A DNA stretch of 64,000 nucleotides from Stropharia rugosoannulata (Eukaryota; Basidiomycota; Agaricomycetes; Agaricales; Strophariaceae), in the NCBI GenBank assembly GCA_028532985.1, contig JANCIK010000013.1:2418001-2482000 (forward strand), written 5' to 3'. The first letter of the stretch is position 1. Each line of letters begins with the position of its first letter. Of this stretch, positions 2,439 through 49,588 are shown one piece after another. The notes under the pieces are model-generated. The model had not been told where the DNA came from. It made no database searches and saw nothing but the letters and a program-made list of their open reading frames with translations. The translations under genes were made by a program, and so were the position numbers.

Positions 2439-2518
2439 CACCTCATCTCACTCCCTCAATGCAAGATATACTCTGACTACACAGAGGGTTTAATGCAACA
2501 GAGACTGTAACCATAGAG
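2439..2518 (+). repeat. left terminal inverted repeat of KDZ-O
   Basis: Aligns without gaps to the reverse complement of 49509-49588. About 53 of 80 positions match, including an unbroken TTTAATGCAACAG core and the flanking ACTGTAAC. The outermost 20 bases are only weakly conserved (about 7 of 20). Confidence 0.7.
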
Positions 2519-3437
2519 GCCATTCAACACTATAGTGATGCATTATCTGTCCGCCCCTGCCACCTCACCCAGCACACTGGTGCATCATTTGACCGTATGC
2601 CCTGATGCAACATGATCTTGGGTCCTCCCGTCCCCCGGCGCCGTATCCCGTCCATCCTTTGGCCCGGAGAGGCATCCGGTTCGGTCCCGTAGGGTCGAGC
2701 TCCCCGTCATTCATTGATGCGCTCTTGATGCGCCGGGCGCCCTTTATGAACCACTTTGTTGCTGCACGGCCAATGCGTGGTTGCACGGTTTGGTCTATTT
2801 TTGCCAGGTAAGTGGGCTGGCCAGGCTTGGACCAGGCTACCCGTGGTTCGCACTCGTTACCCCTTCACTTAGCCTGCGGGATACCTCCTACCTAATCATC
2901 CCTTGTCGGCAGCTGTGTTTTTTACTTACTTGCATCTTGCAAATATATGTTTTAGTTTTCAATATGGATTGCACGCGGCGCCTACCAGTGAGTCCAGTGA
3001 GCTGTTACAAGCTCTCGTTGCATCACCGTAGGTGAAATTTTACTTACAACTCGTTTGTAACCTTTGTCTTGCATCATTGCTAACGCCTAAGAGGCTCTTC
3101 CGTTGCATCAGCAGCTGTATGTATCTGTTTCGTGTGTGTGTGTGTGTGCTAATTACCAACAAGAGTCCTGTTGCATCACCTAGCGTTAATCGGAGCCTTA
3201 CATTCGCTTTGCATTACTGCCAAAATACCGCTATCATAAATAATCAAGAAGGTATTATTATATATATACATTGTAAGATATAAATGTCACCAAGACTAAA
3301 TAATGCAGAACAACAAGAAACAAAGATTAGCATCAAGAAAGGGGTATATGAGGAGGATATATGTCTTTATATGCGCACACTGCACGAAGTTATTCATGTG
3401 AGAACAAATTAAATGTGAAACTGGGAATAGAACATAC
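2519..3437. promoter_or_regulatory. left subterminal region of KDZ-O with TTGCATCA repeats
   Basis: No convincing gene. It contains exact TGATGCAA/TTGCATCA copies near 2603, 3018, 3069, 3103 and 3171, related forms near 2534 and 2579, GATGCGC variants near 2716, and a (GT)n run near 3133. A short terminal exon of the HMG-like gene may end near 3244. Subterminal repeat arrays of this kind are usually binding sites for transposon-encoded proteins. Confidence 0.6.
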
Positions 3438-6400
3438 CGCTTAGTTGTTTTCTTCTCATTTCCTGGCGCTTCCTCTGCAAACTTCCGCTTGATTTTCAAG
3501 TCCGGCACAGAACGGAGCATAGCTGCCAGCGTCCTCGTGAGATCGAAGGTGAATAAATTCCATTCATTTGAGCAGTCGTCCTGGTAGACCGTGCGGGTCA
3601 GAGTACTGCAGCCCCACCAGGCGGCCAGTGTCATCAAAGAAACAAGGCCATTAGGACCTGCTCGAAGGAGGGGGCGCCAAGAACCCTCTGGCAGTTCATA
3701 CATACATATAGGCATAGGCGACGAATCCGAACGACGCTCTGCTGGTTGAATGGCATGCCACCATTTCACCAAAGCAATGCCGAACTCCGCTGAGTCACTG
3801 ATTGACGGCTGAGCTTCATAATTTCGTGCGCCGTTACGGTTCTTCTGAAGAAACTTACTCCATTCGTCCGGGCGTAAGTTAACTTCGGGAAGGGCGCCCT
3901 GAAACAGACAGGTATTGCATCATATGAGGTATAAACTTGCGTACAAGTAGATTGGGCTCATACCTTTGTACCAGAAATGACACCATACCCTAACTTGGAT
4001 TCGATTTCAAACCACAGAGTCACGCACGATTTCCAGTTGTCGCCTAGCCCGTCCGAATGTAATAACATGTTCTCCTTGGCTGAAGTTGCCCAGGAAGGAG
4101 GCTGGTCTGGAGGAATATTCTCTTTCCCCACCGCTAGCTTCTTTGCCTGGTCACTGCCGATGCTGTTCATCTGGTCGGTTCGCGTGGATGGTTTGATTTT
4201 CCGTTTACTTCGAGGCGCTGACGATTCCTGTTGATAAGCAAGTGTAAATTTAGTTCGTTGAATGTCAGTCAAATGAATTAACTGACCGATTGGTCCACAG
4301 CAGCCAGCGGATTGACCGCTGATTGACTATGCAGTGTATTTTGTACCGCGAGGGAAGACGGCGACAACGGTGCACTTGGCTTTACGGTCTGAGATGGAGC
4401 ACTTGGCACTGTTGGTTGTTGCGGACAGGCAGCTGAGCCTACATGAGGCTTAGGTGAAGCTGGCAGACAGACATCACCAACATAGTTCGGATTAATTGGA
4501 GCCTCCGGTAGGCAAGGGGCTGGATGGTCGCTGCTGCCCGAACCATCCGTCATGGGCTCGGTGTGGGTTAATGATACATTGACATGTTCAGAATGATCTA
4601 TTGTGTCGTTAATTAGTGAGTAGGTATCATAGAGATTAAAAGGCTTACTTCGAGAGGTGGCTGAAGGTATTGAAACTTTAGCAAGTCGAACGGTGATGCA
4701 ATATACATGACTCACTGGTAGCATTCATTGACGGGCAGAGTGATGCATCACTGGGAAGGGTACCTAATAATACACAAACTTTACCGTTGCTCAGGTATAC
4801 TGATGCATCAACAAACGACTTACTTCTCATATTGCTTACATTTGCGAGCGGAGCTAGGTTGAAGTGTCATCAGTATAGGTAGGTTAATCTACATAGTGAA
4901 ATAAACATACTGGCAGCGATGTTAACATTTGTAAACCAGGCTGATCCATGAGCTTGAGCAGGTCAGTACTGCTGATGTTCATCAACGGTCAATATGAACT
5001 TACCATTGGGTACTTCTCCCAAGCGCAGATCGGTTTGCGTTTCGGGTGTGTAATCACTTGGAACTGTTGATTAATTAGCTTGCGCAATGAAATGGAAAGG
5101 AAAGAAACATACTGTCAAATAGCGACATATCAAAGTCGTCAGAATTGAGATATTCTAGGAAGCTATTCCCTGCCTCGATTACGTCTTGAGTCGGATTACC
5201 GGCAGACGTCAGTGTCTTCATAACATCCTCGTCTGACATGCCTACGAAGACGTCCTGGCCTCCAGCCTCCGGAGTACGATGATTGATATTTGCTAGATGA
5301 ACAGTAAGATGATGATGCGGCATCACACTGATGCAAAACTTTACCATATCCAGTGCTCTCGTTGCCACTCATCACCGTTGTTATGAGTGGGACATACAAT
5401 CACTAGTGATGCAACACGTACTGAACAGCGCATGAGCGATCCCAGATCCAGCCTCGCCAATGTTCGCTGTGCATCATGAGTCTCGCAGTGATGCATCAGT
5501 ATAATGCAAGACTTACCATAGGCAATCTGCTGACTGTCGTTGCTACTCAAGGTGGTCACTGCAGGGGGTATATAGGTCTGGGGATCTACATGTCTTTGTG
5601 AGTGGATCATCCAAACCCAGTGATACAATACGCACTAAGTAACCTATCAGCCAGCCCAAATCCGGCGCTACCGACGCTTGCTGTACATCATAAGTCTCGC
5701 CGCGATGCCTCAGTAAGATGCAAGACTTACCACAGGTGATCTGCTGGCCCTCGTTGTCACTCAAAGTGGTCGCTGCAGAGGGTATATAGGCCTGGATATC
5801 TCCAAACGTTGTCCCAGCTTGAGCTGGTTCCTTGTGAGCTATTTCAGTTGTAGTACAGTTTGTTGTTGCAGTAGCCGGCGAACACTCATGAGGGGTGAAC
5901 TCGGTAGATGATGCAGAAGGACCGGCAGTGCGCTGTTCTGTCTCTGCCGGTAATACAGGAGGGGTTGGTGGTTTGGCAGTTGGGGCGGACTCGGTCAACG
6001 ATGCGGGAGGGCTGGCAGTGATAATTGGGGTGGACGCTATCGGTAATGCAGGAGGGGTCGCTGGGTTGACTGTTGTGGAGGACACGGTCGACGATATGGG
6101 AGGGATGATGGACGTATTTTGTTCAGTACCTGAGGCCGCCGAATTGGAAGTAGGCGCTGACGCCTCTGGCATGGCATTGGCAAACACTGTCAGACGTGTT
6201 GTCAGTCAGCGCAGGCGCGGAGATTTCAAGCCACGCACACCCTTTTCCACAAGGGCCTTCTTCCCTTTCAAATTTTTGTCTTTGCACGACTTGTTCTTCC
6301 TTTCATCGGACAAGGAAACATTCTGGCCAAATTTCAGTATACGCTATGACAGATGTTGTTGCAGTGAATACGCACGGCGACAGAAGGTTCCTTTTTTGAA

Positions 6401-7506
6401 ATTTCAGCAGGGTAAAGACTGCGCGATGCCTGCACTTCGGGTGCTATAGGATGACGCTGTTAAACAGACGCTTTTACTTACATTTCTTCCCACATTTACA
6501 ATAAAGCTTTGTCAGGTAATCGGTGTACGGATCTCCCAACATGTCGTCATACGCGGGGTAGGCCTGGCCGAAGTCCTGATCCGACTCAACTCCATTACAA
6601 TGTAAGCTGGTATATAGCGATCAGATCAGATTGCTAATTTCACGCAAGACATAAACATATGAACTTACCTGCGCACTGCAATTTCGCCTCCGGCCAAGGG
6701 ATGCGGACCGCCCATCATAATGGTGAATGACCAGCCGCTTATGGTGGCCAGCGCATCCAGACTTTCTGTAATAATTCGTGGTAATTCCTCGATAGCGCTA
6801 AATATAATATTAGTTTTGAAGTGCCGTGCCAACACATAGACCGTACCGGAGATACTGTTCCGGTGTCCGAGTTACTGTTTCGTCGTTGTCGTCGTTCGTG
6901 TTCTTAGTTTCTTCTATCCTTTGAAGGATCTCCTCTTGGACTGATGGATCTTCTTCATCGTAAAGTTGCTTAGAGTATTGGTTAATGAGCTGAAGTCGGC
7001 GACCATGTGTGATTGTGCCTTCTGCTTTGAGCACCTGATTGACTAGGGGTTGAATCTTTTCGGTATAGTACAGCTTAGCATACATTTCATAAGGCTTCAG
7101 AATACGCGTCTTCTTGCGCACGAGTTGTAGTAAAGCCGATGTTGTCCGCCGGCAAGTCCTAGAAGCCGGATTAGATCGCCATCTAAACCAATTTTGTATT
7201 TGCTGTATAAGATAACGATTGAAATTAGATTGTGTATAAGTAAGTAAAGTCTATTTGATATCTTACTGAGATACGCGCTTCAATCGCTTCTTGGACCGCT
7301 TTGATCTGATCTTGAGTGTAACTGGCTTTCGCGAGACCAGGGTACAACTGTTCTTGCTCTGGCCATTTTTTAAACCATTCGTCGTTGACCGAGTCCCAAA
7401 AAACTGTATAAGACTTTCTATCGGCTGTCCTACACATGCGGAACTGCTCTACGTAACCCTCTAAAAAGGCTGTCTGGTCGATTGTTGCCCACGGTTTGCG
7501 GGGCAT
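3438..7506 (-). CDS. KDZ-associated HMG-like protein, multi-exon
   Basis: The start ATG is at 7506. Exon 1 (MPRKPWATIDQTAFLEGYVE...) joins through a GTAAGA...CAG intron to QIQNWFRWRS and a basic helical stretch (KPYEMYAKLYYTEKIQPLVNQ, about 7050-7110). That layout, N-terminal W-rich helices then xNWF then a YxxYAKLYYxEKI block, is the divergent HMG-like protein that accompanies KDZ and related elements in basidiomycetes. Later exons hold SGWSFTIMMGGPHPLAGGEI (near 6700), a Lys-rich block near 6230-6330, a Pro/Thr/Ser-rich linker (5800-6187), a tandemly duplicated exon unit (5270-5800), and a C-terminal block with WWHAIQPAERR and LRAGPNGLVSLMTLAAWWG (about 3580-3770). The middle exons are uncertain, and some may be decayed. 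It is predicted to bind DNA in the nucleus. Confidence 0.6.
5270..5800 (-). repeat. tandemly repeated exon-intron unit inside the HMG-like gene
   Basis: Three diverged copies of a roughly 200-bp unit. Each has an exon end encoding xxYIPxAxTTLSxNxxQQIxxGKS-like residues, a donor site, then an intron start containing GCATCA/TGATGCA motifs and a segment encoding CETxDxQ. The first two copies (about 5490-5600 and 5695-5800) are clear; the third (about 5325-5400) is degenerate. Confidence 0.6.
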
Positions 7507-7823
7507 CTATAATTAAGTAATTAAGAATAGATTGTATGTTCTTTCTCGAGAAATACTCGTACTTTTTAAGCGTTGAGTGCTTGATATTCCGTTTGGTGTG
7601 TCTTGCAATATGGACAACTGGATAGCTGATGCAACGATTTTTTTTCTATAGACACTACGAAGGCCTGGCAGATGGAAGACATGTACTGTGCAGCTTTGCG
7701 GATCCCAATCAGCCACCGCTTTTTAAATGAAACCTTAATCCAAGGGATTTAAAGTGCAGCAGTCTCCCATTTTTCAAGCTTACTCCCCTTGACCTACTAC
7801 ACCCATAAACGCACTCATCTTAC
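7507..7823. promoter_or_regulatory. divergent promoter region
   Basis: A 317-bp gap between the start codons of the HMG-like gene (-) and the viroplasmin-like gene (+). No further open frame is credible here, so it is probably a shared bidirectional promoter. Confidence 0.4.
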
Positions 7824-10435: not shown

Positions 10436-11029
10436 TGAGAGGTCTACTGCGTAGCTAGACTCGAAATCGCGAAACACCACACACACACACACCCAGCGGA
10501 GCGAGATCCTATCCCTTAGATCGAGCGAACGCCCTCAACTAAATGGTAGTATAATCTATGCTCTGCTCTGGTTCCCGTTCTGGGCGTGCGATGTGCGCAC
10601 CTCGTGTCCTCTAGTCCTTGTAATAGCAAGTAGTGCCTGCAAGTTCGTTTGTAAGGAGGGGTTTAATTCTAGTAAATCTCGGATAGAGCCCGGTTGCTAG
10701 TGGCGTGCGCTAGGCAAAATGATGAATGAAATAAGTTGTTTTTAGCGAACGGCTTCGCTGTGCGCACTTCCGGGTCTGGTGACCTCGTACGATGCGCGGA
10801 CTCTCCAAAGTCCAACAATCCCAAGACTCTCCAAAGTCTTTCACCCGGCGGTGCAGTCTCACAATCTAAACACTACAGTGCGAGTTTCCGTACACGGTTG
10901 TACTGACTCCTCACTGAGCTCTCCAAATGACCCGGTGGCCAGAAGCTATCCAAAACTCCTATGATTCACAAACACTTCACAGTTAAAACCCTAACAAAAG
11001 CTAAACACAGCCCGCTGACGGCCTGGGAC
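10436..11029 (-). repeat. left LTR of Gypsy element, first part (594 bp)
   Basis: Matches 42162-42755 with three differences. It begins TGAGAGGTC and is cut at CTGGGAC by KDZ-T; the rest resumes at 28199. It includes an (AC)n run near 10480. Confidence 0.95.
11023..11029. repeat. 7-bp target-site duplication of KDZ-T, left copy
   Basis: CTGGGAC is present once in the intact right LTR but on both sides of KDZ-T here (second copy 28192-28198). This gives a direct empty-site comparison. Confidence 0.95.
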
Positions 11030-11309
11030 CACATAGAACAGTCCCCTGGTACCGTACACTATAGTGTATTCGGGGACTATATATATACTATATGACATAA
11101 CATCATTCCTGCCAATTCTTTATTTAGATCTCTGCCATGTGTCATAGACGGATCCGGCGACTAAACGTCTACCGTAGGCTATAGCGTCATTCCGGCAGAA
11201 TGCGGGTTCCCAGCCACCGTTCCAGCTCGGCATCGGGCCGACACACCTCCCCTCGGAGGGTCGGTCGGTGCCCCGAGGTGTTGGTCGGTGGCAAGCTACC
11301 CAGACTCGG
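11030..11309 (+). repeat. left terminal inverted repeat of KDZ-T
   Basis: 280 bp, about 96% identical to the reverse complement of 27912-28191, with no gaps. It contains a 14-bp palindrome TACACTATAGTGTA near 11056 and, toward its inner end, clustered TCGGTCGG/CCGA motifs. Confidence 0.93.
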
Positions 11310-11709
11310 CTTGGTAATTAGCATCCTCAAAGCATCCCGATTGTTGTATAAGTAGGGGTTTTTAGTGCTCTTATATATATGATAGAGTAAAGTTACGACT
11401 GATATACCAGCTCCAACATCCTACACCTGTCCTCAGCGCCGGCCACCGGATCCAGACGGACACCGATATCGACCTTTTAGATATAAGCATTCTATGTTAG
11501 TTATTGTCTTTGCTCATTGAATGCATGTTGCTGTGATAGTAAGGTCGGCTAAATACTGGTGTTAATCAGACCTCTCCGACTACGCATCGGTATCCGATGA
11601 GTTCCATTTCGGCCCATCGGCACGTGACATTCGCGTTGAAGTTAAATTTTCTTACTACCCTACTACTTAGTATACTACTACGACCGTCCATTGCACTACA
11701 TCAGGTACC
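11310..11709 (+). promoter_or_regulatory. upstream region of the TET/JBP gene
   Basis: No gene. TATA-like stretches occur near 11345 (TATAAG) and 11370 (TATATATATG). A TCGG-TAT-CCGA site lies at 11587-11597. The start codon is at 11710. Confidence 0.5.
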
Positions 11710-13012
11710 ATGTCGCATTTACTTGCACTAGACTTGACAGAAACTGTTGCAAAATATATGAAAGCACGTTTCCACACAATTGTCACGGGCGAGGTGGTCA
11801 ATATCCATTGGCCATACAATGCTTGTCTTCAATGTGATTGCGACGATATGGTTGATGAGGTCGTAACAGCATTTCGTAACCGCAGTAAGATAAGGACTGC
11901 TATTTGGTGGATGACTTGCTTACCATTTCTAATAGAAGAGACATCTTGGAATGTTGAAGATTATGTTTCTTGTTTAACTCAAAAACAGAATAGTCAAAAT
12001 GAAGAACTGGAGACAGCTATGTCCAAAAAATTTGGAGCATTACAAAGTAGCAAAGGCCTTATCACTGAAGCATGTCTGATCACAGACTTATCTGGAAATA
12101 CGCTGTTGTGGTATCTCCCAAATACTCTAACAAAATCAAGAGCGGTTGAGTGTTCCACATTGTCCTTATAACAATAACTAAAAATAGTGGCAGAGTATGA
12201 TATGGGAAGGTGTAGCATCCCTGGGGTCATTCATAAAAGTTGCAAACAAATCTAACGATTCAAGTGGACCAACATACTATGCCACAAGATCAGCATCGGA
12301 GTCCAGTCGGGAATTGAACACGGCGTCCGGTCGGGAATTGAGCTCGGCGTCCGGTCGGGAATTGGCATTGCATGACATTCCAGAGATCGCGTCAGGAACT
12401 GTAACAATTGCACCTTCCTGGTATGAGGTTGGTCATGAGGTGGGTGCCGTGACATGAGCACAGTGTCTGTATAACAACGAGAGTAACTAGAAGACCAATC
12501 TGGAAATGTCGTCTTTGTTAAATGCAAAGAACAGGAATTGGCTTGAGAGCCAGAAGGAGCTTTCGGCCTTGATTGGAGGCTTACTATCCATTATTCATCC
12601 AGAGCAGTACGAGCAAGGAATTGCTTGCTTGAAGTACATCCAGGCTCATCCCGATGTGCTTGCCAACTCAGCGGAATTGACCGAGGTGATGAATTTTTGG
12701 AGTGCCCCTTTTACGGCAATCACCATTATCAGCAACCGCACTCCGTTTCACCGAGACACGGGAGCCGATACGAGTGCCTTTGATGTCTTGATCAACATTG
12801 GTACTACTCCCAATGTGTACTTTGAATTACCCGGCCTGGGGATTAGACTGGCATACAGAGGTGGAACAGTCATTGGAATGTCATCAAGGTTACTTGTCCA
12901 TGGGGTGGCTAACAACATTGACAGAATTTGTATTATCTATCATTCTAAGCACACCATTACTGAAGGATTGCATGGAAAAGTACTCCCATGGATGAATATT
13001 TCTCAATTTTAG
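11710..13012 (+). CDS. TET/JBP-type 2OG-Fe(II) dioxygenase
   Basis: Joining exons 11710-12144, 12194-12439 and 12491-13012 gives 400 residues in one frame with clean GT-AG borders. The N-terminal part contains SGNTLLWYLPNTL (just before residue 145) and the middle WYEVGHE, both typical of basidiomycete Tet-like oxygenases. The catalytic double-stranded beta-helix has the HxD iron motif in FHRDTGAD (His314, Asp316), the distal His in LLVHGV (His364) and a 2-oxoglutarate-binding Arg (about Arg372, RICIIYH). All key residues are present, so an active enzyme is predicted. The family oxidises 5-methylcytosine or related methylpyrimidines in DNA, here in the nucleus. It converges with the next gene, stop codons about 70 bp apart. 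A Ser/Arg/Glu repeat in exon 2 lies in a probable linker. Confidence 0.9.
12296..12365 (+). repeat. 24-bp tandem repeat in TET/JBP exon 2
   Basis: Three consecutive copies of a unit containing CGGCGTCCGGTCGGGAATTG encode SxSRELN/SGRELSS/SGRELAL. The repeat preserves the element's CGG/CCG half-site signature. Confidence 0.85.
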
Positions 13013-13081
13013 TTAACTTTGCTCCTGTACTGTGTTCAAGTTTATTAATCATTTGCGCAAAAAAAGTCTGTACTATTACAT

Positions 13082-15274: not shown

Positions 15275-15617
15275 TCTATGACGCGAGGGTAAGGATAACA
15301 AAAGCGACTTTTACTGTTCCGTTGATGGTTGGATATAATCACATGACATTTGTCGGTGTGTTCCGTTGATTACACAATCATATCACGTGTGTAGCATAGA
15401 TCTCTACAGAAATACTTAATTGTCTATCTGTAAATGAGACGTTGAAATAAATGGCTCTTCAGTTACATTGCCCTACTAATTCCACATTTGAAGTTCCTTC
15501 AGTATATACACATGGAATGAACAAACAATATTGAACGAATATCGGCTTGTTAGCAAGTGTCGGATGCATCGGTCGCCGTGTCGGTCATGTGTGCTGTACA
15601 AAAGTGCAATTCTCTAA

Positions 15618-32851: not shown

Positions 32852-33373
32852 CCCTGACAATCACTTCTTAGGATGTTTAATTCCCGAACTGACATTTTGC
32901 TGTCTTTTCATTGATAACTATCTATAGTCATAGCTAGCATCTATTTCTTGGTACATGTGTCATGACCCTGTATTTGAAATAAGACTGTCGGGTAACATTG
33001 TTATGCATTTTCGGCTTCAATCTCAAAGCGGACATCAATTTGCCAAACGGGGAAAGACCTGCATCTCTTTTGATGCGCGCACCCTTTTGCTGCGATGTGC
33101 GCACAATCCTCCCACCTTCTGTCGCTATATGGGCTCTTGTATTCAGGTCCCCTCCATCCCACTCAATCTCCGTGAATGTAACGTCAGACAGGTGTAGCCC
33201 TGTGCTATGACCCATCTGGACCTTTTGTTGAGTCCCTCTTTTCTTAACTCCTTGGGCCTGCTGCTCAGTCACCAGCTGCGTGCAGTGCTGATCGTCCCAG
33301 TGAATGCTATATAAGCGCTCGCCGTCTCTGTATGAGCACATCGCATCTTATTCCTACTTTCTCAACCACCACT
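32852..33373 (+). other. Gypsy intergenic stretch
   Basis: No convincing gene; contains a TGCGCGCA site at 33074 and GTGCGCAC/GCGCTC variants. Presumably the promoter of the next gene. Confidence 0.35.
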
Positions 33374-34688: not shown

Positions 34689-34815
34689 ATAGCCTGGCTC
34701 AATGTGCACTGCGCGCCTTAAAGGGGCGTCTGTAGCTAGCTCTCTTTGTATTCCCCATCTTCTTTACCCAATATATTATATTGTGGTCACTTTTCTTCCT
34801 ACAGTGCTCGCACAT

Positions 34816-38751: not shown

Positions 38752-40019
38752 CAAATCATCGAGGATTGAAAATCCTGATCTGCGTTAGGGTTTTCCGTTG
38801 TACCAGGGTCCTGCAACTTAGGTTCGCGCTGCACAATCTTGGGACCGCACCCTCGGTTATAAGTGGGTACTACCAATTTACGCTGTGTGTTGGGGTCGGT
38901 GAGCGTAAGCTCAACCGTTCCATCGCCGCGCGTCTTGACATTGCTCTCCGTGAGGATCTCGAACGGCCTGCCCAAGAGCACCTCATAAGCCGCTGCGCTG
39001 ATGACATGTACTTGTAAATACACTGTCAGCCTGTTAAACACAAATGGTACGTTGCGCGCTAAACCCTTGGTGGATTCCACCTGCTTATTCGCGCTCTGCA
39101 TCCGTATAGTGAAGTCCGGGTCCCAACTAAGTCCTAAGCGCTCAGCGGTGTCCTGTGCCATTGACACAATCTGCGACCCACTGTCGAGCAACGTCTCTGC
39201 GTGTCCCTTGCCGTTGATGAGCGGAAATACCGCCTTTAGATGGTGCGATTCGCGCGCCACTATAAGTCCCTTAGGCTTTTCGCCCGGCTGCAGAGTCGAG
39301 ACGTACTGCTCGTACGGGTCTTCCATGATGATGGTCCCCGGTTGCAGTCCGCTGCGCTCATCTGAGCAAGTAAGGAAAGTGGCCACTGGTAGCTCGTCCA
39401 TCTGCATAAACTCCTCTTCCTCTTCTTCTTCTGCTAACTGCGCAATAGCTTCATCTACTTCGCGCTCTTCCTCATCATAATCTAATTGTAGTACGCGCAT
39501 CGTATTCAGATCCAATGGTACCTTTCTCGGTACTATGCGCTCAACGAACTTCCTTCTGAAACCTGCAGTCGATATGCCTAACAACTGGCCCTGCGTGATC
39601 TCAATCTTCTGATTTTCTAAGTGTTTGAGGACTGCGTCGGCTTGCGCTTCATCTTCGATAGGTGCGCGCAGCTTATAGGCCGGCTTCCTCTTCTCTACTA
39701 CAGGTATGGGCTCTTCCCTAACCTTAGGTTTTACTTTCTCTGGTACGCGCAGCGGGGGTACCATTACATATGGCACTGCTGCAGATCGTGCACTAGGCCC
39801 AGCTTTTGCAGGAACCTCAAACACTACTTTCTTCTTTACTGGTGCGCTGCGCGCACCTTGCTCCTCCACTACTTCTCGCAACTCATCTTCCTCCTCATCA
39901 CTCGCGTCCTCAACTGATGCTCTGGGTATATTCTTGATTGGTAACTTCTTGTTTGCGCCCTCCGGGTTCTTGGGTTTATCAGAGCCGCTACGCATAACTC
40001 TGCCCGCGTTTCCCTTCAT
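38751..40019 (-). CDS. Gypsy aspartic protease ORF
   Basis: Separate frame between gag and pol; the first ATG is at 40019 (MKGNAGRVMRSG), five bases after the gag stop. The catalytic motif is LLDSGSQIVSM, followed by LLGRPFEIL, the usual retropepsin pair. The N-terminal 240 residues are charged, with Lys/Glu-rich and Glu-run segments. Stops at 38751-38753, where TGA shares its A with the pol ATG. Gag, protease and pol are thus three frames; translation of the later two needs reinitiation or frameshifting. Confidence 0.85.
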   Translation of the reverse strand: MKGNAGRVMRSGSDKPKNPEGANKKLPIKNIPRASVEDASDEEEDELREVVEEQGARSAPVKKKVVFEVPAKAGPSARSAAVPYVMVPPLRVPEKVKPKVREEPIPVVEKRKPAYKLRAPIEDEAQADAVLKHLENQKIEITQGQLLGISTAGFRRKFVERIVPRKVPLDLNTMRVLQLDYDEEEREVDEAIAQLAEEEEEEEFMQMDELPVATFLTCSDERSGLQPGTIIMEDPYEQYVSTLQPGEKPKGLIVARESHHLKAVFPLINGKGHAETLLDSGSQIVSMAQDTAERLGLSWDPDFTIRMQSANKQVESTKGLARNVPFVFNRLTVYLQVHVISAAAYEVLLGRPFEILTESNVKTRGDGTVELTLTDPNTQRKLVVPTYNRGCGPKIVQREPKLQDPGTTENPNADQDFQSSMI

Positions 40020-40024
40020 CAGAC

Positions 40025-41977
40025 TCAATCGAAACCCTGACTGAGCGCAGTGTCGCGTTCGGCTTTCATAGTCGCTATTAACTGACGCTGTTCCTCTATC
40101 ACCTCCTCAGGCGTCTTCGCCGATGCGCGCTCCTTCAGGAACGCCTTCTTACTCTCCAGCTCTTGCTGAAGTGCGTGTATCTGCTCCTCATAGGTCTCGT
40201 CCAAGGAACTGGCCGGTTGGTACATCTGCGAGTATACCATGCTAGGAGGCATACTCATGTACGAGGGATGGACGGGTGCCATATACGCTTGCTGCGCGGG
40301 CTGCCCGTTCTTCTTATGCCATTCGTCGACGCGCTCTTTGATTGCGCGCGAAGGGTCCCAAGGTATCGATGACCCGTCGGGTAGCTGTAAGCGCCCCGCC
40401 TCTGTGATGACAATCCTTCCAGCTGACAAGTCTTGCTGCCGTACGATGCACTCAGCAACCACATGTCCCGTCTGCTTGCAGTAGAAGCAACGGGGCTCCG
40501 GGCGTTGTTGGTATTGGAAAGGCCTAGGCGGCGGTCCACCGAAACCCAGTGCGCTCATGGGCATCATGGGGGCTACTGGTTGTACAGGCACCGACATCGG
40601 TGCGGCGCGCGCAGCCATGACATTGCGAATAATGTCCTCTAATTCCTTCTTACTCGACTCCTTCGACTTCGCCACCGTCTTCTCTACTAACGATAAGGTA
40701 TCCTTGAAGGAGGCAACGAACCCTTTCAGGTCCTCAATCTCTCCGCACAGCGAACCAACATCCGCGGCCTCAGTCTTGATGGCGGGCACCGGCATAAGTC
40801 CATCAGTGCTATCGCGCCCTAGGCTCAGCGTAGTGCTTGGGTTCTTGGTGCGGGCCATTTGTTCCGCCATCTCAGCTACTTGTTTGAGAGGGTACATGTC
40901 CTCGGTGCGCGCTTCTACCGTCACCCCAGTAGGTGCGGTGAACTGTATATTGCGCTCAGTCAAGAACTTGTCGAACGATGCGCGCGTCGTGTAATCAATG
41001 TCCAGTTTATTAAACAGACGATCCCTGAACCCCACAGTGAGACTATTGGTGAAGTAAGTCACCAAGGTATGATTCGCGAGCAGGGTAGGCGCTTTCGTGA
41101 GCTTAGTGGCCTCGGCCAAGAACGCGCGCTTGAAGTCCAGCAACACCTGGAGGTCTTCCTCCGAGATGCGCTGATTCTCCTTGCAGAGCTTCTTGAGCCG
41201 CGCGATGGACCCTGTCTGAATGCTGATCACCTCCGGGTACTCGTTGAGAATCATTTTCTTGAGCTCCGCGTACCCCTTGGTATCATAACCTGGTAAATTC
41301 TCCCACTCCTCCGCCGTCTGCATGGGTACATATTTGATTACATATCCTCTCTTCTCATTGTCTTCCATCACCTCCGCGCGCTTAAACCAATCCTCCAGAT
41401 CCTCGAAGTACCGCGGCAGCTCATCGCGCTCTGCAGCAGGATCGAAGCTTGGCGCGCCGCATGCACCGCGTACTGGCATGGACATGTCCTTAGGCATAGT
41501 TTCTGATTCTCGTGGGGGTGTATTTCGTTTGCTTTCTGAGAGATCTGACAAGTCTCCTTCAAATATATCTCTCGCTACGCGCTCCGCTTCACTTTCGCTA
41601 TTTTCCGCCGTGCGCTGCGCGGATGTCTTAGCAGTCCCAAATACTTCCGAGAATGGAGGAGGGGTGTCTTGGGTAGCTTGGCTATCAGAAGTACCGAATG
41701 GTGCGGTTTCAAGTGTAATATCACCGTCCACTAATTGGCCTTCTGATTCAATGCCAGATGGTGGTCCCCAAAATCCACTAGTCCCTACTCTTAATTCCGA
41801 GTCGCTTTCGGTGAGCGCACCTGGGATGCGCTGCGCTAATCCCTGAGTCTCGATCTGCAAATGCGCTTCCTCCCTTGCTCTTTTCTTTGCTTTTCTATCT
41901 CTCGTCGGTGTAATTACCAACGGCTCTACCAGCTCAGCGTCTTTCTTGCTCCTCGTGGTTCTCTCGCGTGAAGGCAC
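40025..41977 (-). CDS. gag: Gypsy gag with CCHC zinc knuckle
   Basis: A 650-codon open frame. The central part (RYFEDLEDWFKRAEVMEDNEKRGYVIKYV...) is the Gag capsid-like region of Ty3/Gypsy elements, and RCFYCKQTGHVVAEC is a CX2CX4HX4C knuckle for RNA binding. The C-terminal part is helical (EEQIHALQQELESKKAFLKERASAKTPEEVIEEQRQL). The frame has no ATG for its first 160 codons: 41977 is a GTG and the first in-frame ATG is at 41497. Because the open frame extends even further upstream to a stop near 42085, the real start may lie in an upstream spliced exon or be non-AUG. Confidence 0.85.
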   Translation of the reverse strand: MPSRERTTRSKKDAELVEPLVITPTRDRKAKKRAREEAHLQIETQGLAQRIPGALTESDSELRVGTSGFWGPPSGIESEGQLVDGDITLETAPFGTSDSQATQDTPPPFSEVFGTAKTSAQRTAENSESEAERVARDIFEGDLSDLSESKRNTPPRESETMPKDMSMPVRGACGAPSFDPAAERDELPRYFEDLEDWFKRAEVMEDNEKRGYVIKYVPMQTAEEWENLPGYDTKGYAELKKMILNEYPEVISIQTGSIARLKKLCKENQRISEEDLQVLLDFKRAFLAEATKLTKAPTLLANHTLVTYFTNSLTVGFRDRLFNKLDIDYTTRASFDKFLTERNIQFTAPTGVTVEARTEDMYPLKQVAEMAEQMARTKNPSTTLSLGRDSTDGLMPVPAIKTEAADVGSLCGEIEDLKGFVASFKDTLSLVEKTVAKSKESSKKELEDIIRNVMAARAAPMSVPVQPVAPMMPMSALGFGGPPPRPFQYQQRPEPRCFYCKQTGHVVAECIVRQQDLSAGRIVITEAGRLQLPDGSSIPWDPSRAIKERVDEWHKKNGQPAQQAYMAPVHPSYMSMPPSMVYSQMYQPASSLDETYEEQIHALQQELESKKAFLKERASAKTPEEVIEEQRQLIATMKAERDTALSQGFD

Positions 41978-42141
41978 CGTTCCAAAGGATGGTCTGGCTT
42001 CTTCTGGCTCGGCGAGCGATGAAGGCGCAGGAAATTTGCCTCGCTTGTTACTCGTCCCCGTTTTATTTGAAATTTTTGTAATTTATTGTAATAGGTGCAA
42101 GCCGTAGTTCCCGAAACACTAAGTGAGATTTCTGAACCTTC

Positions 42142-42159
42142 CCCTCGCGGTGGGCTCCA
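42142..42159 (-). other. Gypsy primer-binding site
   Basis: On the minus strand, two bases (TC) after the end of the 5' (right) LTR, comes TGGAGCCCACCGCGAGGG. It starts with TGG, complementary to a tRNA CCA end. The primer tRNA would end ...GTGGGCTCCA; I cannot say which tRNA this is. Confidence 0.75.
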
Positions 42160-42161
42160 GA

Positions 42162-43376
42162 TGAGAGGTCTACTGCGTAGCTAGACTCGAAATCGCGAAA
42201 CACCACACACACACACACCCAGCGGAGCGAGATCCTATCCCTTAGATCGAGCGAACGCCCTCAACTAAATGGTAGTATAATCTATGCTCTGCTCTGGTTC
42301 CCGTTCTGGGCGTGCGATGTGCGCACCTCGTGTCCTCTAGTCCTTGTAATAGCAAGTAGTGCCTGCAAGTTCGTTTGTAAGGAGGGGTTTAATTCTAGTA
42401 AATCTCGGATAGAGCCCGGTTGCTAGTGGCGTGCGCTAGGCAAAATGATGAATGAAATAAGTTGTTTTTAGCGAACGGCTTCGCTGCGCGCACTTCCGGG
42501 TCCGGTGACCTCGTACGATACGCGGACTCTCCAAAGTCCAACAATCCCAAGACTCTCCAAAGTCTTTCACCCGGCGGTGCAGTCTCACAATCTAAACACT
42601 ACAGTGCGAGTTTCCGTACACGGTTGTACTGACTCCTCACTGAGCTCTCCAAATGACCCGGTGGCCAGAAGCTATCCAAAACTCCTATGATTCACAAACA
42701 CTTCACAGTTAAAACCCTAACAAAAGCTAAACACAGCCCGCTGACGGCCTGGGACGGAACCCAGCACACAGATCTAGTGGGTAGACAATTGCTTAAATTA
42801 CTATAGAGGAGGATACAGGTTTATATGCGATGCGCGCATGTGTACTAATAATAAGGTAAAGTAAATACTAGCAACGCACGGCCAAAGGTCCGCGCATCGC
42901 ATCCGGGCTTCCCTTCAAGTGTCCTGATCCCTTGGCATTCGCTGCGCGCATGTCGTTCATTCCCTCGGGCTTTTGCGCGTCTTTTGATGCGCGCCGCCAC
43001 GGTCACATGATGTGTGGACTTAGACAAATTCTGCCTTCGCAATGCGCGCATATGAGATACGTGCACAGCCCTTCACACCGCCTTTGGTATCCGCTCAGCT
43101 GTACTCACACCGCTCTTTGCTGGTGCTTAACCGTTCTACGCTTTCCTGATCGCTCGCACAGACGGCCAAACTATGCACTCTAGACTGTGCAGCTCGCTGA
43201 CCAATCCTTCTCGCGATACGGTGCACGCAGGCGCTTGTAGTCATGATGCTCGCGCGCTGATAGCTATAGACTATGAGGCAGGCTCAACTCTAGTCTCTCT
43301 GTGTTTCCCGCGCGCAGCTATCCCACTAACGGACCTTCTAACTGTTTACACCCGTAGCCAAAAAGCAGCCCTGTCA
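42162..43376 (-). repeat. right LTR of Gypsy element (5' LTR), intact 1215 bp
   Basis: TG...CA ends. Uninterrupted counterpart of 10436-11029 plus 28199-28819, with six differences. Contains four TGCGCGCA octamers and drives the minus-strand gag-pol transcript. Short open frames inside it are duplicated in the left LTR and are not genes. Confidence 0.97.
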
Positions 43377-44261: not shown

Positions 44262-44517
44262 TGTACTTAGGTCAAAAAAATCGATTAGTAGCAGCCCTTA
44301 TATATATAGTGTCAAAAATGGTGATGCAAGGGCCGGGGCTTCGTCTTGCATCACCCACTGTGCATGTTGCATTATGTACCCCCTTCTTATTGCATTACTG
44401 CTCGCTCCCGTGTGCGTTAGATTACGCGTCTGAAGCAGTCAGGTTCAATGCATGATCGGCGAACGTTTGTAAGCCACTATATGTTGCATCAGTCACGTAT
44501 GATTTGAGTTGCATAAT
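44262..44517 (-). promoter_or_regulatory. motif-dense gap 3' of KDZ-O transposase
   Basis: About 255 bp holding exact TGATGCAA/TTGCATCA copies near 44334, 44346 and 44484 and four one-base variants (near 44366, 44388, 44447 and 44508). It separates the transposase stop from the ATG of the small basic gene, so the motif also marks an internal promoter, not only the ends of the element. Confidence 0.6.
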
Positions 44518-47500
44518 CTACATAGTCGCTTTGTTATACTTGGATTTATGTGGGGCTGGCTCGTTGAATTCATTGGGAAGCACTTGAGTCGGATCCTCGA
44601 TGATTTTGAACATACGGTCCGTATGTTGCGCTAATGACTGCCAACGACGCTGACAACCTGCCAGCATCTTATTGAACATGGCCGCCTGACGTTCGGCGTA
44701 AGCAATATGCCCTTCAGTATGCACATCCGATGCACTCTCCGCACGGGGACTGGTTTTGGGGTCCGCTTTACCCTTCCAGTCCTGGGTGCGGTACTTGAAG
44801 TAAAGCAGAACTCGTGTCATTTCTTCTGAGAGGAGTACAACCTCTTCCGAAAATCGTTCCGCTCTCGCTCTGGATTTACACCACTCAGAACGGATACCTG
44901 ACGTGCAAAGATAAGACATCAGCTAATCACTGTCTTTTGCTAGAACTCACGATCAGTCAAATACGTTCCACTTTCGTCATCAATCTCCTCCATCGGTACC
45001 TTCTTCCAGATCCACGAAAGAGTCTGTCGACCCTCAGATTCCTTGCCCTTGCCTTTAGCTTTCCCCTCAGCCACATCCCGGATGTCTTCTTCACATAACA
45101 GTAGTAAGTCTTCCTTCCATTTGTACTCCGCAAGTAACGGTGATAGAGAGGTAAGCGCGGCGAAGGCCGACCTATATTCCTCGGCTGCACCCTGAATCTT
45201 TGCATCAATACCAGCAATTGTATTCCGCGCGCGAGTGTTTGCTGCTTGGCCCCGTACGAAGCGATCCTTAAACTGATACAGATGGGCTCGAACCTGGAGT
45301 TGGGAGCGAATGACATCAAGCACTTCATGAGCTTGTGAGTAGCGAAGCCTCCATTCAATTCGTTGAAGGTTTACAGGGACATGGGTCTGGGTCTTGAGTT
45401 GGGAAGGGAGCCAGAGAGAGAGCTTGTAGACCTGCAGTTCCGTAGATGTGGTCTGCGCAAATTCCTCGCGCAATTTGGCCAGTCCCGGGATGTATATCTG
45501 GTGGAACGAAAAGAATGTATCGATCTTCCTGGTAAGCGTGTTACACTGCAACTGATGCTTCGTGCGCTGGCGGTCTAGCGCATGCTCCCAGACCTTGGCC
45601 GCTGATGCTTTGAGACGGCGTCTACAATCGGTACATCAGGTTTGAAGACGTTATAGGCGTCACAAATAGGAAACTTACTGTTCTCGTTCCAAATTAATCC
45701 CCATCATTATCAGTACGCTCGGCGTCACCCTGTCATCCAACGCCATATCTCTTGCATTAGCAATGTCACGAGCTTCATCTTCAACAAGCTGCTTCATTAC
45801 AGACGCCTGCGTTGGTCCTAATAGCATGTTTGCTCGCGATATCAGGATGGCAGATGTGTATGCACCAGTGCTTGTAACTTCGTATGGATTGGGGTTCGAT
45901 TTGTCGAGTTCCCATGCCTGAACCATTTCCTCCCATCGTTCAATTGTTTCCGGGGGAACTGTGAGGGTCATCTCGGCATGGCTGACTTTGTGCTCAGCCA
46001 TGTCGCGCGCTGCTGCATACATTTTATGGTATAAGCTGTTCGCTAAATAGACGGTCTTTGAGTAAGATGATTTGTTCTTAACCATAGCAAAGCCATACGA
46101 GACTCACCCATCCCCGATACCTTCTTCCAGTTCTCATCCCCGATATGGCTATCAATGCAATCGGCCCGGCTTCCAGGACCCATTTCGCGTGTGCTTACAG
46201 CAATTTTGTCTAGATTAGCCCAACCTCTCTCGGGTGCTTCGCCATCTGTCTGGCCAGTATGAGGCGTGAAGTGAAAGGAGAAGTCGGACCGGCACTGTGC
46301 AACATGCGCCGGTAGATGGAATTTTGGGACAAGATATCTGACCGAAATGTCATTACGGAGGATGAAGAACTCGGAGTCGTGTTTCTTCATCCGCTCTTTA
46401 TGGTGCTTCCACCATTGACAAGCAATATCATACGATACTGTAAAGTGCTTGAGTGAAGTGCCTTTCATTGCCGAGTGAAAAACATAATCCATATTGCAGT
46501 ACCTGATACATTTGCTTTAGTACTGCCAACAGAGAAAGTTACATTTTGATCCGACCTTTCACCCCTTTGCAAATCACCAACGCTAACCGGCCGTTTCATA
46601 TCATGTCGAGAGCATACCACCGCCGCAATGCCCGTGGCAGCATGGCCTTGCAGCGCTCTCTCAGATAAGTTTACGGCGTCATGACGGGAGCAAGAGCTTT
46701 TCTGTACATGTAAAGCAGAGATAATCAGTGATAAGATCTCGGAGCAGAAGTCAGATAACGCCTACTGACCGGCTCCTTTTCATTCTGAAAGTTCTTCAAA
46801 TATGTCTTATATTGATGTTCTTCAACAAAGTAGGCACAACCCTGGTTGAGACCAGGGTCTGCGATGATATTCAAGACGTTCTTGCGCCTCATGCGCATAC
46901 ATGCGTCCAACGCGACATAGATACCGTGCAGCCAGCTTTAGAGGTTAAGTATACTGTATCGTAAATATATACAATGAAAGGCTTACCTGGGCGAGCCATC
47001 TGTTTCCCAGTTAGGTCTCATGTTGATCCCGGGCTGAGGACAGGCAGGGCAAAGTACAGCACACTCCCCGTCCTTCGTGCCAGGAATGCCTGTTGCATCA
47101 TGCCCCTGGCCCGAACGTTTCATGAGCTTGAGAAATCGCCACTCTCGTATCATCCGCAGCAAAGCAGGATAGCAGTCCTGATAAAGACAAATCATTAGCC
47201 TGGTGATACAACCGTTTTCAAGATACATTGCACTACTTACATCAATATGTTCAGTTCCAGTGTTGTCTGTACATCGACTGAGGGTCTGGTGAAACTGGAA
47301 GACCGATAAGGTAGACTCATAGGATAGAAGTTCAAGATATTCAAGACATGTAAATGTCGCAGCACTGCGAGGATCCGTTGTGGTCGAAGGGAACAGTCGG
47401 GCGCGGAGGAGCTGGACAACGTGTTGCAGAGTTGTATTCCTGCATCCGCAGAAGTCAAGAGCAATGATATGAACGCCGGTTATGTCAACAACAGTAAAAT

Positions 47501-48310
47501 CGTCGGCAAAGGAGTGCTTAGGGTTGAAGCATGGATCACCGTGTTCATGGCCAAGCTGAACTCGTAGCCCGATCGCTTTCAAGGAGGACTTCTCAAAGAA
47601 CATACCGTTCCATTTCTGTAGGAAGAACATAAGTCATAAGTAGAATATAGGTCAAATTAGTAGGCCCACCTGAATTCGGTGCAAGAACAGTCTTGAATGC
47701 GATGTTACCATGCAGTTTTTGCACAGCATGGACCGGCCAAAACAATCCTTGCATTCAAATTCGCCACTGCCTTCCCTGCATAAAACACATGTCTCGGTTG
47801 CGAAGTGTCCTCGCCCTTCAACCGCAATCATCTCTTGTAGTATCAGTTGGGCTTTAGGGATGAACTCGCGGAGGGCCTGATCCTAGATAGCGATTAGTAA
47901 ATAGTATACACAGGAGTAGCTAGGACCTAATCACATACCCCTTGAATCCTCAACTTCGTTATATTTTCAGTGTCCCCTCCAACCCTAGCCATGTGTTGCA
48001 GGTAATCTTCATCGACAGGAATACCCATGGAGATGTTTTGATCATCGTCCAACAAATCGTCGGCCAAACTCGTGTTGAGGTCCGGGGTATCATGTTCGAC
48101 ATGTTCCTGAATGTCTGGTGAAGGTTGAGTAGAGACTGTTGAATGCAGTGCCCCAGTAGTGCGTGTTGAGATTTTCGCTGAGCTACCTGAGCCGGTAACA
48201 CGATAATGAACGTGCTCGTGGTTCTTCACACTACGGACAATCGTTGGGGCCCTGTGGTGCACCATACTGTTCAAGATTTTCTTCTGTCGAGCGGTTAGAC
48301 CTTTGGTCAT
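44518..48310 (-). CDS. KDZ transposase of KDZ-O
   Basis: Multi-exon minus-strand gene; I choose the ATG at 48310 (MTKGLTARQKKILNSM) because the open frame further upstream is only repeat sequence. Near 47690-47860 it has the CxC2 cluster (CVLCREGSGEFECKDCFGR, LCKNCM) leading into KWNGMFFEKSSLKAIGLRVQLGH. Then come DITGVHIIALDFCGC, CLEYLELLSYEST and LCPACPQPGINMRP. The RNase H-fold core (46085-46495) has SYDIACQWW (Asp), DGEAPERGWANL (Glu) and DSHIGDENWKK. The C-terminal end is IRSEWCKSRARAERFSEEVVLLSEEM (44780-44900). Same architecture as the KDZ-T enzyme but closer to the consensus. No clear disabling lesion was seen, though splice sites between 46500 and 47000 are uncertain. Confidence 0.82.
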
Positions 48311-49508
48311 GGTCGTTTTGAGTAGAACGGGATGGCCAAGAGGATTGGTTGAAGAGCGTCGCAACGGTGAGCCTGGCGTGGTAGGAGGGGAAGAAAGGTG
48401 ACATGGCAATGGCAGTGGCGGGCGGACATGGCAGGCAGAACATCGAAGACTGAAGTTGAGAACGGCGTGGTGATGCAAGCGAAAGACGTGGGACTTTGGT
48501 GGGACTGATGCAACGTTATTGTGACGATCGCTGATGTGAGCGGAAACGCCAAGATGATGCAAGGGGTCTCGGCAAATGATGCAAAGGGCATTGGGAGCAG
48601 CTAGTAAAGGCGAGAAGCAGGTCAGGCAAGTGATGCAAGATGAGCAACCAGGCAAGTAATGCAAATGCATACATGATGCAAGGTGAGGGACCCAGGACAG
48701 AAGTATTGCCAAGGTATACACCAGATGATGCACTAGGAAGAGCTTGCAAACAATGCAAAGGGAAGGTGAGCGGATGGATAGTAGGGTTAACTCAAGATGA
48801 TGCAACAGAATAGCTCTTGCACAGGATACGGAGCAAATACGGAGCAAGGAAATGCCTAGGTCTAGTGGAGGTGATGCACAGGGAAAGTCCGGTCCTGATG
48901 CAATGCATTGCCTGACGAGGGTGTTATAAAGCGAGCGCCCAGAACCCAGGGCGAGCAGGTGTTGCAAAGGGCGTCCAATAGATGTTGCAAAGGGTGTCCA
49001 ATAAATAATGCAAAGGGACAGAAAATCGGCCATTTTATTGTAAATGAATCCATCGGCGGAAAGACTACGCCTGTTTACCGTGTCCACTATAATTCAAGAG
49101 AATAAGAATAAAACATATGTTTGGGTGGCTTACTCTGAACCTTACCTGAGCTGAACTTACAATATAGTGCGTGAGTAAGGCGAAAGGTAAAAAGGCAACG
49201 GCGCGCTTTATTCCTGTAACGTAGGTAATATGCAGGCGCAATAATTGATGAGGTATACCCATTAAGAAGTGAATGCTGGGGGTGAACCGTGCGCTAGCGC
49301 ACGGTTCACCCGACAGGGACAGGGAGGGCGCATCAAACGGAAGCGGCGCGGCGCACCGGAAGGGAGCGCCCCCGGAAGGAGCGCCCCCGGCCGGAAAGGT
49401 AAGGTCGGCGAGGCCCTAGAAGTGATGCAACGTACAGGGCAAATGATGCAATAGGCAAATGATGCAATATATTCAAAAAAGAGGCCTCTTTAGCCCTATA
49501 CAAAGGGC
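48311..49508 (-). promoter_or_regulatory. right subterminal region of KDZ-O, dense TGATGCAA array
   Basis: No gene. Eight exact TGATGCAA copies fall within 48471-48903 (48471, 48506, 48555, 48577, 48631, 48674, 48798, 48896) with more variants up to 49010, then three at 49423-49466. All the exact copies run in the same direction. The array precedes the transposase start codon and so is both subterminal and promoter-proximal. A GC-rich block with a 32-bp palindrome lies at 49280-49400. Confidence 0.7.
49280..49311. repeat. 32-bp perfect palindrome
   Basis: Sixteen bases (GGGTGAACCGTGCGCT) are followed at once by their exact reverse complement. It is followed by a GC-rich stretch with two copies of a GGAAGGxAGCGCCCCCGG unit. 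It lies 277 bp from the right end of KDZ-O. Confidence 0.9.
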
Positions 49509-49588
49509 CCTGTAGTTACAGTAGCTGTTGCATTAAACCCCATGTGTAGTTACACAAGGTTTTGCATCAGAATAGCTATAGCGGCTGA
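49509..49588 (-). repeat. right terminal inverted repeat of KDZ-O
   Basis: Partner of 2439-2518; the shared core read on the minus strand is TTTAATGCAACAG. Outer 20 bases are diverged. Confidence 0.7.

Follow-up and report, generated by a model that had tools for sequence, protein, structure and literature searches.

Three mobile elements nested in one another within 64,000 nucleotides of the Stropharia rugosoannulata genome (contig C13:2418001-2482000, hereafter the window; genome of 48 Mb in 20 contigs) each carry a dense short DNA word of their own. The outermost and innermost, KDZ-O and KDZ-T, are Kyakuja/Zisupton (KDZ) DNA transposons, and a Gypsy long terminal repeat (LTR) retrotransposon lies between them. 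We propose, with a probability of about 55%, that each family keeps a private word under selection, that this word is read by a sequence-specific protein encoded by the element, and that the coat so formed would mark the DNA as self, as VANC proteins do for plant transposons. The proposal draws on the private words and their dyad geometry, selection on the DNA, zinc-cluster genes within the elements, and a joint change of word and candidate reader in the KDZ-T clade.

Private words of nested and related elements

KDZ-T is inserted in an LTR of Gypsy, and Gypsy is inserted in KDZ-O. The elements and their words are as follows.

2439..49587, - strand: KDZ-O, KDZ DNA transposon with CA..TG ends, ~14.2 kb minus the nested Gypsy and KDZ-T
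10436..43376, - strand: Gypsy LTR retrotransposon, split by KDZ-T
11030..28191, - strand: KDZ-T, TET-bearing KDZ DNA transposon, 17.2 kb, terminal inverted repeats (TIRs) of ~280 bp (96%)
2603..7634: left TGATGCAA cluster of KDZ-O, 10 sites (simulated mean 0.45, maximum 4 in 200 simulations)
44322..49569: right TGATGCAA cluster of KDZ-O, 17 sites (simulated mean 0.35, maximum 3 in 200 simulations)
28274..43050: Gypsy word TGCGCGCA, 19 sites, spread over LTRs, coding sequence and other DNA
11440..27756: KDZ-T word CGG-N3-CCG, 45 sites with 28 different spacers, from a triplet-pair scan

The word TGATGCAA has 29 sites in the window, 27 of them within KDZ-O (17 on the + strand, 10 on the - strand), which gives 1.9 per kb in this element versus ~0.05 per kb in the genome. 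For TGCGCGCA, 19 of 21 sites in the window fall in Gypsy (simulated mean 0.52, maximum 3), where GCGCGCA is also found at 38 separate places (simulated mean 3.5, maximum 9). Across the genome, TGATGCAA is counted 2272 times versus 756 for its reversed control and TGCGCGCA 2784 times versus 633 for its control; what makes both words private is their density, since neither is absent elsewhere. Since its genome count is three times that of the reversed control though only two copies of KDZ-O are known, TGATGCAA is also a common host 8-mer.

In KDZ-T, the 45 sites of CGG-N3-CCG compare with a simulated mean of 2.9 and a maximum of 10, and other triplet spacings up to N8 give 2-16 sites, with the exception of N7. 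The earlier note on this DNA had assigned an over-represented motif to each of the three mobile stretches; over-representation is real for all three when set against simulation, but the KDZ-T motif is CGG-N3-CCG and not the TCGG-N-CCGA that had been named. The latter occurs five times in the window, four of them in KDZ-T (simulated mean 0.24; 0 of 200 simulations reach 4), and elsewhere three times in element C1 and twice in L061. It was rejected as the KDZ-T word, being much rarer than CGG-N3-CCG and present in other families, with two occurrences (11233 and 27980) that represent one site in the mirrored TIRs. The genome counts of TCGG-N3-CCGA (558 versus 570 in the control) and of ACCGCCGGT, a form of the family A word described below (402 versus 314), indicate that these are not host-wide words.

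Two further features of the KDZ-T triplets were observed. CGG-N7-CCG forms a second peak of 23 sites (11030-28191), and a 117-bp tandem duplication (22396-22636) carries CGG-N3-CCG at 22402, 22519 and 22636, a VANC-like route of motif gain.

A Pfam scan of the genome returned 123 KDZ matches, many of which are exons of one gene. The words of other KDZ families are listed below; A, B, C1, C2 and L054 were analysed as stretches rather than as delimited elements.

C13:1385000: family A, CCG-N1-CGG, 62 sites, all with C or G at the centre
C12:2480000: family B, TGCGGCAA
C10:1016900-1039500: family C1, GGCCGA, and family C2, CGCCGA
L054 and L063: GTCATGCA
L062: CGCCGA, common to C2

All words of the whole-body type (T, A, B, C1 and C2) contain CGG or CCG, which are absent from the words of KDZ-O, L054, L063 and Gypsy. 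A cross-occurrence table of 10 words in 12 element stretches and two host flanks is near-diagonal. Its off-diagonal leaks are few (seven CCG-N1-CGG in KDZ-T, five CGG-N3-CCG in KDZ-O and five sites of the C1 word in L062), and a weak L061 word is widespread across it. The near absence of cross-occurrence that the earlier note had reported is thus borne out with the corrected words. In this genome, the k-mer enrichment check that it had suggested likewise gives family-private words and negative host flanks, although TGATGCAA and TGCGCGCA exceed their genome-wide controls.

Among the first 30 KDZ loci, 21 have a family word, eight have none and one (L028) was masked; two of the 21, L017 (-1.8) and L019 (-1.3), lie around the null limit of -1.6 to -2. 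In a KDZ tree of 31 of 40 rows (nine near-identical A rows dropped), equal words fell in the same clades, but with 7 of 25 inner branches well supported the tree is not used as support. A direct CCG-N3-CCG in L061 (13 sites) fails correction over all dyads (score -0.2) and is suggestive only. In the masked locus, a AAAAAGAC repeat dominates 249-3523, and it also occurs on both strands in L057:1-3000, with AAAAGAC counts of 31 and 13, respectively; it may be the word of another element or a repeat.

Selection on the DNA

Synonymous codons were shuffled in 1000 rounds with protein and codon usage held constant. The main set comprised open reading frames (ORFs) with homologues in another family, or gag-pol for Gypsy; reader ORFs were excluded and separate places counted once. 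Coding counts of the own word far exceeded the shuffle means in family A (28 versus 3.7), KDZ-T (15 versus 1.8), C1 (14 versus 5.1), C2 (25 versus 3.5), B (19 versus 3.2) and Gypsy gag-pol (16 versus 4.5). None of the 1000 shuffles reached the observed count in any of these, and in each the sites fall in all three codon frames. This excess in coding sequence beyond the synonymous shuffle indicates that the selected object is the DNA.

The conserved coding pieces of KDZ-O (2868 nt) hold two sites versus 0.16 (8 of 1000 shuffles reach this), and those of L054 one site versus 0.09 (90 of 1000). An apparent coding enrichment in the long KDZ-O ORF at 47930-49093 (10 versus 1.66) was discarded, as the sites fall in its unconserved part. 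In the reader ORF of family A taken alone, the excess is clear (10 versus 2.4, 0 of 1000). In a set of 16 KDZ-T ORFs, of which some have overlapping ends and some lack known homologues, CGG-N3-CCG occurs 33 times versus 4.5 (0 of 1000), CGG-N7-CCG 19 times versus 3.9 (0 of 1000) and the N2 spacing 12 times versus 4.4 (2 of 1000), and the N0, N1, N4, N5, N6 and N8 spacings are unremarkable. When single ORFs were shuffled, several small ones were not significant. Three host ORFs and the right host flank, taken as controls, have no such enrichment.

In A, B, C1, C2 and Gypsy, similarity between the flanks of different sites hardly reaches past a short extension of the word, so the majority of sites seem to be of separate origin; this does not apply to the three KDZ-T sites at 117-bp tandem spacing or to part of the L054 word, which lies in a tandem array. 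Conservation was followed in family A with 12 of 14 loci (L009 and L023 dropped as near duplicates), which form groups of nine and three that are 86-87% identical. In these non-independent comparisons, 65% of motif 7-mers were identical (608 of 934), versus 45% of all, 43% of GC-rich and 44% of two-CpG 7-mers, and CpGs were kept at 89% inside the word and 62% outside it. At 27 aligned family A sites, the copies without a site are mostly one base off.

Candidate reader proteins

KDZ-T encodes a protein with a Zn2Cys6-like cluster, which we regard as its candidate reader.

24069..25598, - strand: candidate reader of KDZ-T, 510 aa, with only six Cys, in two C-x2-C-x6-C halves within 24609-24881

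Zn2Cys6-like proteins are also present in family A (616 aa), C1 (241 aa) and B (253 aa). The six-Cys pattern is full in T and C1, and in A the second half has x7. Aligned around the cluster, the A, C1 and B proteins are 21-23% identical to that of T and share the cysteines (B minus one) and a Lys, which presumably falls at Gal4 Lys18. As this Lys sits in the second half, the order of the halves looks permuted. A coiled-coil-like stretch, judged by eye, follows the cluster in T and in A. Zn2Cys6 regulators typically recognise pairs of CGG triplets (inverted, direct or everted) as coiled-coil homodimers, and Lys18 of Gal4 contacts CGG (PMC5559640). The geometries of the T word (inverted, N3) and the A word (everted, N1) match such triplet orders. 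A C2 reader, if present, would lie outside the C2 stretch examined, and a Protein Data Bank sequence search with the T reader gave no relevant match.

The earlier note had credited each element with a Cys-cluster or basic putative DNA-binding protein. This fits KDZ-T, with its Zn2Cys6-like protein and CxC2 transposase, and KDZ-O, where CxC2 is part of the transposase, but not Gypsy, whose scanned ORFs yielded no more than a gag zinc knuckle that scores under the Pfam cut-off. A third conserved gene was observed in B (L057:3060-4817), C2 (L060:3440-5611) and C1 (L059:7337-8725), encoding a single C-x2-C-x6-C half and a long acidic tail; its B and C2 copies, the two scanned, have no Pfam match.

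Divergence of word and reader

The T reader gave 18 matches at 14 places in the genome, with identities of 98-100% at the window and two other loci, 83-85% at three, 42-44% at two, and 34-36% at the remaining places, where a second, shorter stretch reaches 44-48%. Judged by position, 11 of the 14 have a KDZ match no more than 13 kb away; for the other three the distance is 21-40 kb. Among the TCGG-N3-CCGA places listed on contig C1, 13 of 50 fall in the 17.3 kb (C1:2698-2715 kb) of an element with an 85% reader and the other 37 are spread over ~4 Mb, with none near the KDZ match at C1:2383608, whose group has ~35% readers. In L061, from the group of ~35% readers, CGG-N3-CCG occurs once in 4.5 kb versus 10 times in the equal T stretch around the transposase, and direct CCG-N3-CCG 13 times versus 3. 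The transposase pieces of L061 are nevertheless 71-94% identical to those of KDZ-T. In the KDZ-T clade, the word is thus kept with an 85% reader and gone with ~35% readers despite the conserved transposase, a joint change of word and reader.

In family A, two elements with 56% readers account for 30 of the 56 ACCGCCGGT places on contig C1, and the element with the 40% reader has none. A..T-flanked sites, looked at for a flank preference by reader group, number just 0-2 per 3.6-kb locus.

Proposed mechanism

For the families with CGG words (T, A, C1 and B), the most likely reader, we suggest, is a dimer of a permuted Zn2Cys6 (Gal4-like) type. The geometry of its target would differ between families, with inverted CGG-N3-CCG in KDZ-T, everted CCG-N1-CGG in family A, and one CGG with family-specific flanks in the others. 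With dense sites along the element, exons included, such a reader would cover the DNA of its own element and hardly any other. This coat would most likely be a self-mark that keeps the element expressible, as plant VANC does, and would locally oppose CG methylation or heterochromatin; binding, coating and anti-silencing are here deduced from sequence, as is the existence of any reader for Gypsy or KDZ-O. VANC-like self-marking is, in our view, the best mechanism, with binding at transposition sites and target immunity as its rivals. At somewhat less than even odds, we would extend it to a whole-body address code that is maintained by selection on synonymous and non-coding sites and read by swiftly evolving zinc-cluster proteins. 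Orientation and spacing of half-sites would then define self, and families would diverge by a switch of geometry, between inverted N3, everted N1 and perhaps, in L061, direct N3, with the transposase conserved, Gypsy having evolved a code of its own.

Where encoded, as in T and A, TET/JBP may add oxidation.

12491..13009, + strand: TET/JBP dioxygenase exon of KDZ-T (Pfam match 12506-12940; PF12851, E 9.6e-14); the TET ORF of element A is its homologue

A genome scan with PF12851, used since a PF20515 probe was silent in the genome and in 14 controls, gave 32 matches, one of them below the cut-off. In the window only KDZ-T has one, and family A has one. By coordinates, many of the 32 lie beside A- and T-type KDZ matches. 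The earlier note had offered TET/JBP as an oxidation step for the motif systems in common, which is not sustained: being present in KDZ-T and A and not detected in KDZ-O, Gypsy, B, C1 and C2, it cannot be a shared effector. Kojima (PMC12730594) described 7-bp duplications and CA..TG ends in TET-bearing Kyakuja and suggested that TET of the AG type has no target specificity in its action. Such specificity could be supplied by a reader, yet words occur without TET too.

Several results weigh against the proposed reading. No clear word was found in 3.4-4.5 kb at eight of the first 30 KDZ loci (L001, L002, L003, L004, L006, L012, L013 and L030), nor at L064 (weak). The T reader scores 16.9 bits against PF00172 (Zn_clus), below the gathering score of 21; the A and B readers, scanned with it, gave no match to this profile. 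The B reader has only five of the six Cys, and the structure model of the zinc cluster (pLDDT, predicted local distance difference test, of 49) is too poor for use. A protein database held no homologue of the T or A reader, versus 289 of the transposase. No Zn2Cys6-like protein was found in KDZ-O or Gypsy and no reader was identified for either, which leaves the Gypsy word without a recognised reader, and PF12851 has no match in KDZ-O, Gypsy or the B, C1 and C2 stretches. The word excess in the reader ORFs alone is weak in T (3 versus 0.75, 42 of 1000), C1 (2 versus 0.5, 86 of 1000) and B (5 versus 1.9, 25 of 1000). The ~35% reader figure for L061 comes from sister loci and a match 35 kb away. 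Finally, the family A core CCG-S-CGG is kept while its readers range from 100% to ~40% identity (40-45% at the lowest), so that word and reader do not always change together. Co-evolution of motif and reader, which the earlier note had proposed to check, therefore holds for the KDZ-T clade but not for the family A core.

Layout of sites and alternative explanations

Two layouts are observed, whole-body and end-clustered. In family A, only one of the first 16 kilobases lacks the word, which in the other 15 occurs 1-7 times per kb, and in KDZ-T it runs almost end to end, with sites about every 200-255 bp in A, B, C1 and C2 and every 380 bp in T. Nucleosome-scale regularity was not found: in A, B, C1, C2 and Gypsy the spacing of sites is no more even than expected by chance, and in KDZ-O the sites are clustered. 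The end-clustered layout belongs to KDZ-O and its relatives. KDZ-O is so treated because only two of its sites fall in conserved ORFs; 22 of its 27 TGATGCAA sites are within 3 kb of an element end. In L063, 15 of 16 TCATGCA places lie inside 0.43 kb.

Such end clusters favour an explanation in which the words are transposition sites, bound by the transposase or by a TnpA-like partner to bring the ends together for excision, as at the subterminal repeats of CACTA/Spm. CACTA elements combine family-specific subterminal motifs with dissimilar DNA-binding proteins (PMC2613891), and for KDZ-O the CACTA/TnpA layout would be the simpler reading. As an account of all the families it is unlikely, however, because the sites of T, A, B, C1 and C2 run through body and exons, where end assembly needs none, and because the word changes in the KDZ-T clade while the transposase stays 71-94% identical.

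Target immunity would equally place a reader on the element's own DNA, with the transposase avoiding its own copies and nesting into elements of another code still possible. Whole-body coverage is consistent with this, and the nestings seen all join different families, KDZ-T having entered Gypsy, Gypsy having entered KDZ-O, and KDZ-O a KDZ-T relative. We consider it improbable, since it would leave the Gypsy word unexplained and depends on a purely hypothetical contact between reader and transposase. No more probable is transcriptional autoregulation, in which the zinc-cluster protein would be an ordinary promoter activator whose extra sites are tolerated; Zn2Cys6 proteins are indeed transcription regulators that recognise CGG pairs (PMC5559640), but tolerance does not account for the excess of exon sites over the synonymous null. 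An artefact, whether from composition, codon use or CpG decay or from local duplication, could draw on CpG depletion in A, B and C1 (observed/expected 0.67-0.76), the 117-bp repeat with three of the 45 KDZ-T sites, the partly tandem L054 word and the genome-wide excess of TGATGCAA and TGCGCGCA over reversed controls, and is very improbable in view of the synonymous shuffles, the spacing specificity with varied spacers, the low flank similarity, the different words in homologous genes and the negative results for three host ORFs and the host flanks.

For the VANC-like system of private motifs and element-encoded readers that the earlier note had envisaged, the private words, the selection on DNA and a fast-evolving zinc-cluster protein in the four CGG-word families stand in support. 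The end-clustered KDZ-O, the unshared TET and the missing reader for KDZ-O and Gypsy do not fit it.

Comparison with known systems

VANC of the Arabidopsis VANDAL (MuDR) elements combines a dense private motif, a different motif in a related family and an element-encoded reader with variable regions (PMC5735166). The present elements resemble this system in having a dense short motif private to each family and a candidate reader encoded by the element. The VANC21 motifs are mainly non-coding, share one orientation and are associated with tandem repeats (PMC5735166, PMC10398659), whereas the words described here also lie in exons, on both strands where asymmetrical, and are mostly separate; their flanks are hardly similar in A, B, C1, C2 and Gypsy, and site-less copies are mostly one base off. 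The candidate reader also differs in being Zn2Cys6-like, and anti-silencing, demonstrated for VANC, is here a conjecture from sequence. The ORFs scanned by Pfam held KDZ and Gypsy domains and no Mutator-type domain, which places the elements outside MuDR/VANDAL.

With CACTA/Spm TnpA (PMC2613891), KDZ-O shares motif arrays near its ends, and dissimilar DNA-binding proteins stand beside conserved transposases in both systems; unlike in CACTA/Spm, the sites of T, A, B, C1 and C2 are spread over the body. Compared with Zn2Cys6 (Gal4-type) factors, the candidate readers have two Cys triplets and, in T and A, a coiled-coil-like stretch, and they go with symmetrical CGG/CCG sites of fixed spacing, but the loop of these proteins is 15-24 residues long, their order looks permuted and their score is below the Pfam cut-off.

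The KDZ group was reportedly named in a 2014 paper. Membership of the window elements is supported by a KDZ transposase domain over the cut-off (PF18758), and KDZ-O and KDZ-T both have the 7-bp target-site duplication (TSD) and CA..TG ends that are hallmarks of Kyakuja. In these features, and in the presence of TET/JBP in some, they resemble the TET-bearing fungal KDZ elements (Kojima, 2025; PMC12730594), and the KDZ-T TIRs (~280 bp at 96%) set it apart from two Laccaria Kyakuja families that were reported without TIRs in the same paper. Its main text does not contain the words "subterminal" or "VANC", and no Zn2Cys6 reader is named in the sections covered. Searches of the open full-text literature, which includes few subscription papers, gave none recognisable by title or opening of the abstract as a description of such words or of Zn2Cys6 readers in KDZ or Gypsy.

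How a transposon recognises itself, and escapes silencing without waking other elements, is little known beyond plant VANDAL. One genome here holds eight private codes with computable words and a candidate reader for four, which makes recognition, code switching and an effect on methylation directly testable. Words in exons would be a clear case of a DNA code that overlaps the protein code in mobile elements, and the pairing of reader and word would give a transposon a way of recognising its own DNA.

Other features of the window elements

The remaining features are listed below.

2432-2438/49588-49594: KDZ-O TSD ACTTTAA (7 bp), from comparison with the second copy
46046..47633, - strand: KDZ-O transposase exons, KDZ 46046-46516 (PF18758, E 8e-34) and CxC2 46986-47633 (PF18803, E 5.5e-39)
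11023-11029/28192-28198: KDZ-T TSD CTGGGAC (7 bp)
16855..19235, - strand: KDZ-T transposase exons, CxC2 17825-18871 and KDZ 17198-17791
20282..21952, + strand: KDZ-T gene pieces, divergently transcribed, homologous to element A
10436-11029 + 28192-28819 and 42162-43376: Gypsy LTRs (the left one split by KDZ-T), 99.5% identical pieces, 6 differences in 1222 bp
34819..42082, - strand: Gypsy ORFs, gag 40028-42082, protease 38754-40106 and RNase H/integrase 34819-38784
29135..31380, + strand: antisense ORFs between Gypsy pol and the left LTR, pieces 51-68% identical in the Gypsy adjoining element A

KDZ-O has an inverted repeat of 66 bp (76%) near its ends. Its second copy, at C7:2063.6-2078.8 kb, is ~99% identical to that of the window, has no Gypsy and is inserted in the end of a KDZ-T relative with a 7-bp overlap. 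That copy (L052:3563-4517) also contains an insertion of ~955 bp, absent from the window copy, which resembles a miniature inverted-repeat transposable element and has inverted ends of ~42 bp and a ~9-bp overlap at its site. A KDZ transposase from this DNA has its best named relatives in Flammula, Psilocybe and Galerina, genera of Agaricales mushrooms.

The Gypsy adjoining element A (C13:1401-1403 kb), with relatives of the antisense ORFs, has no TGCGCGCA in the 2 kb examined. Among the 35 of 468 candidates that were scored, copies of the Gypsy pol (34819-38784) numbered 28 at 95-100% identity and seven at 89%.

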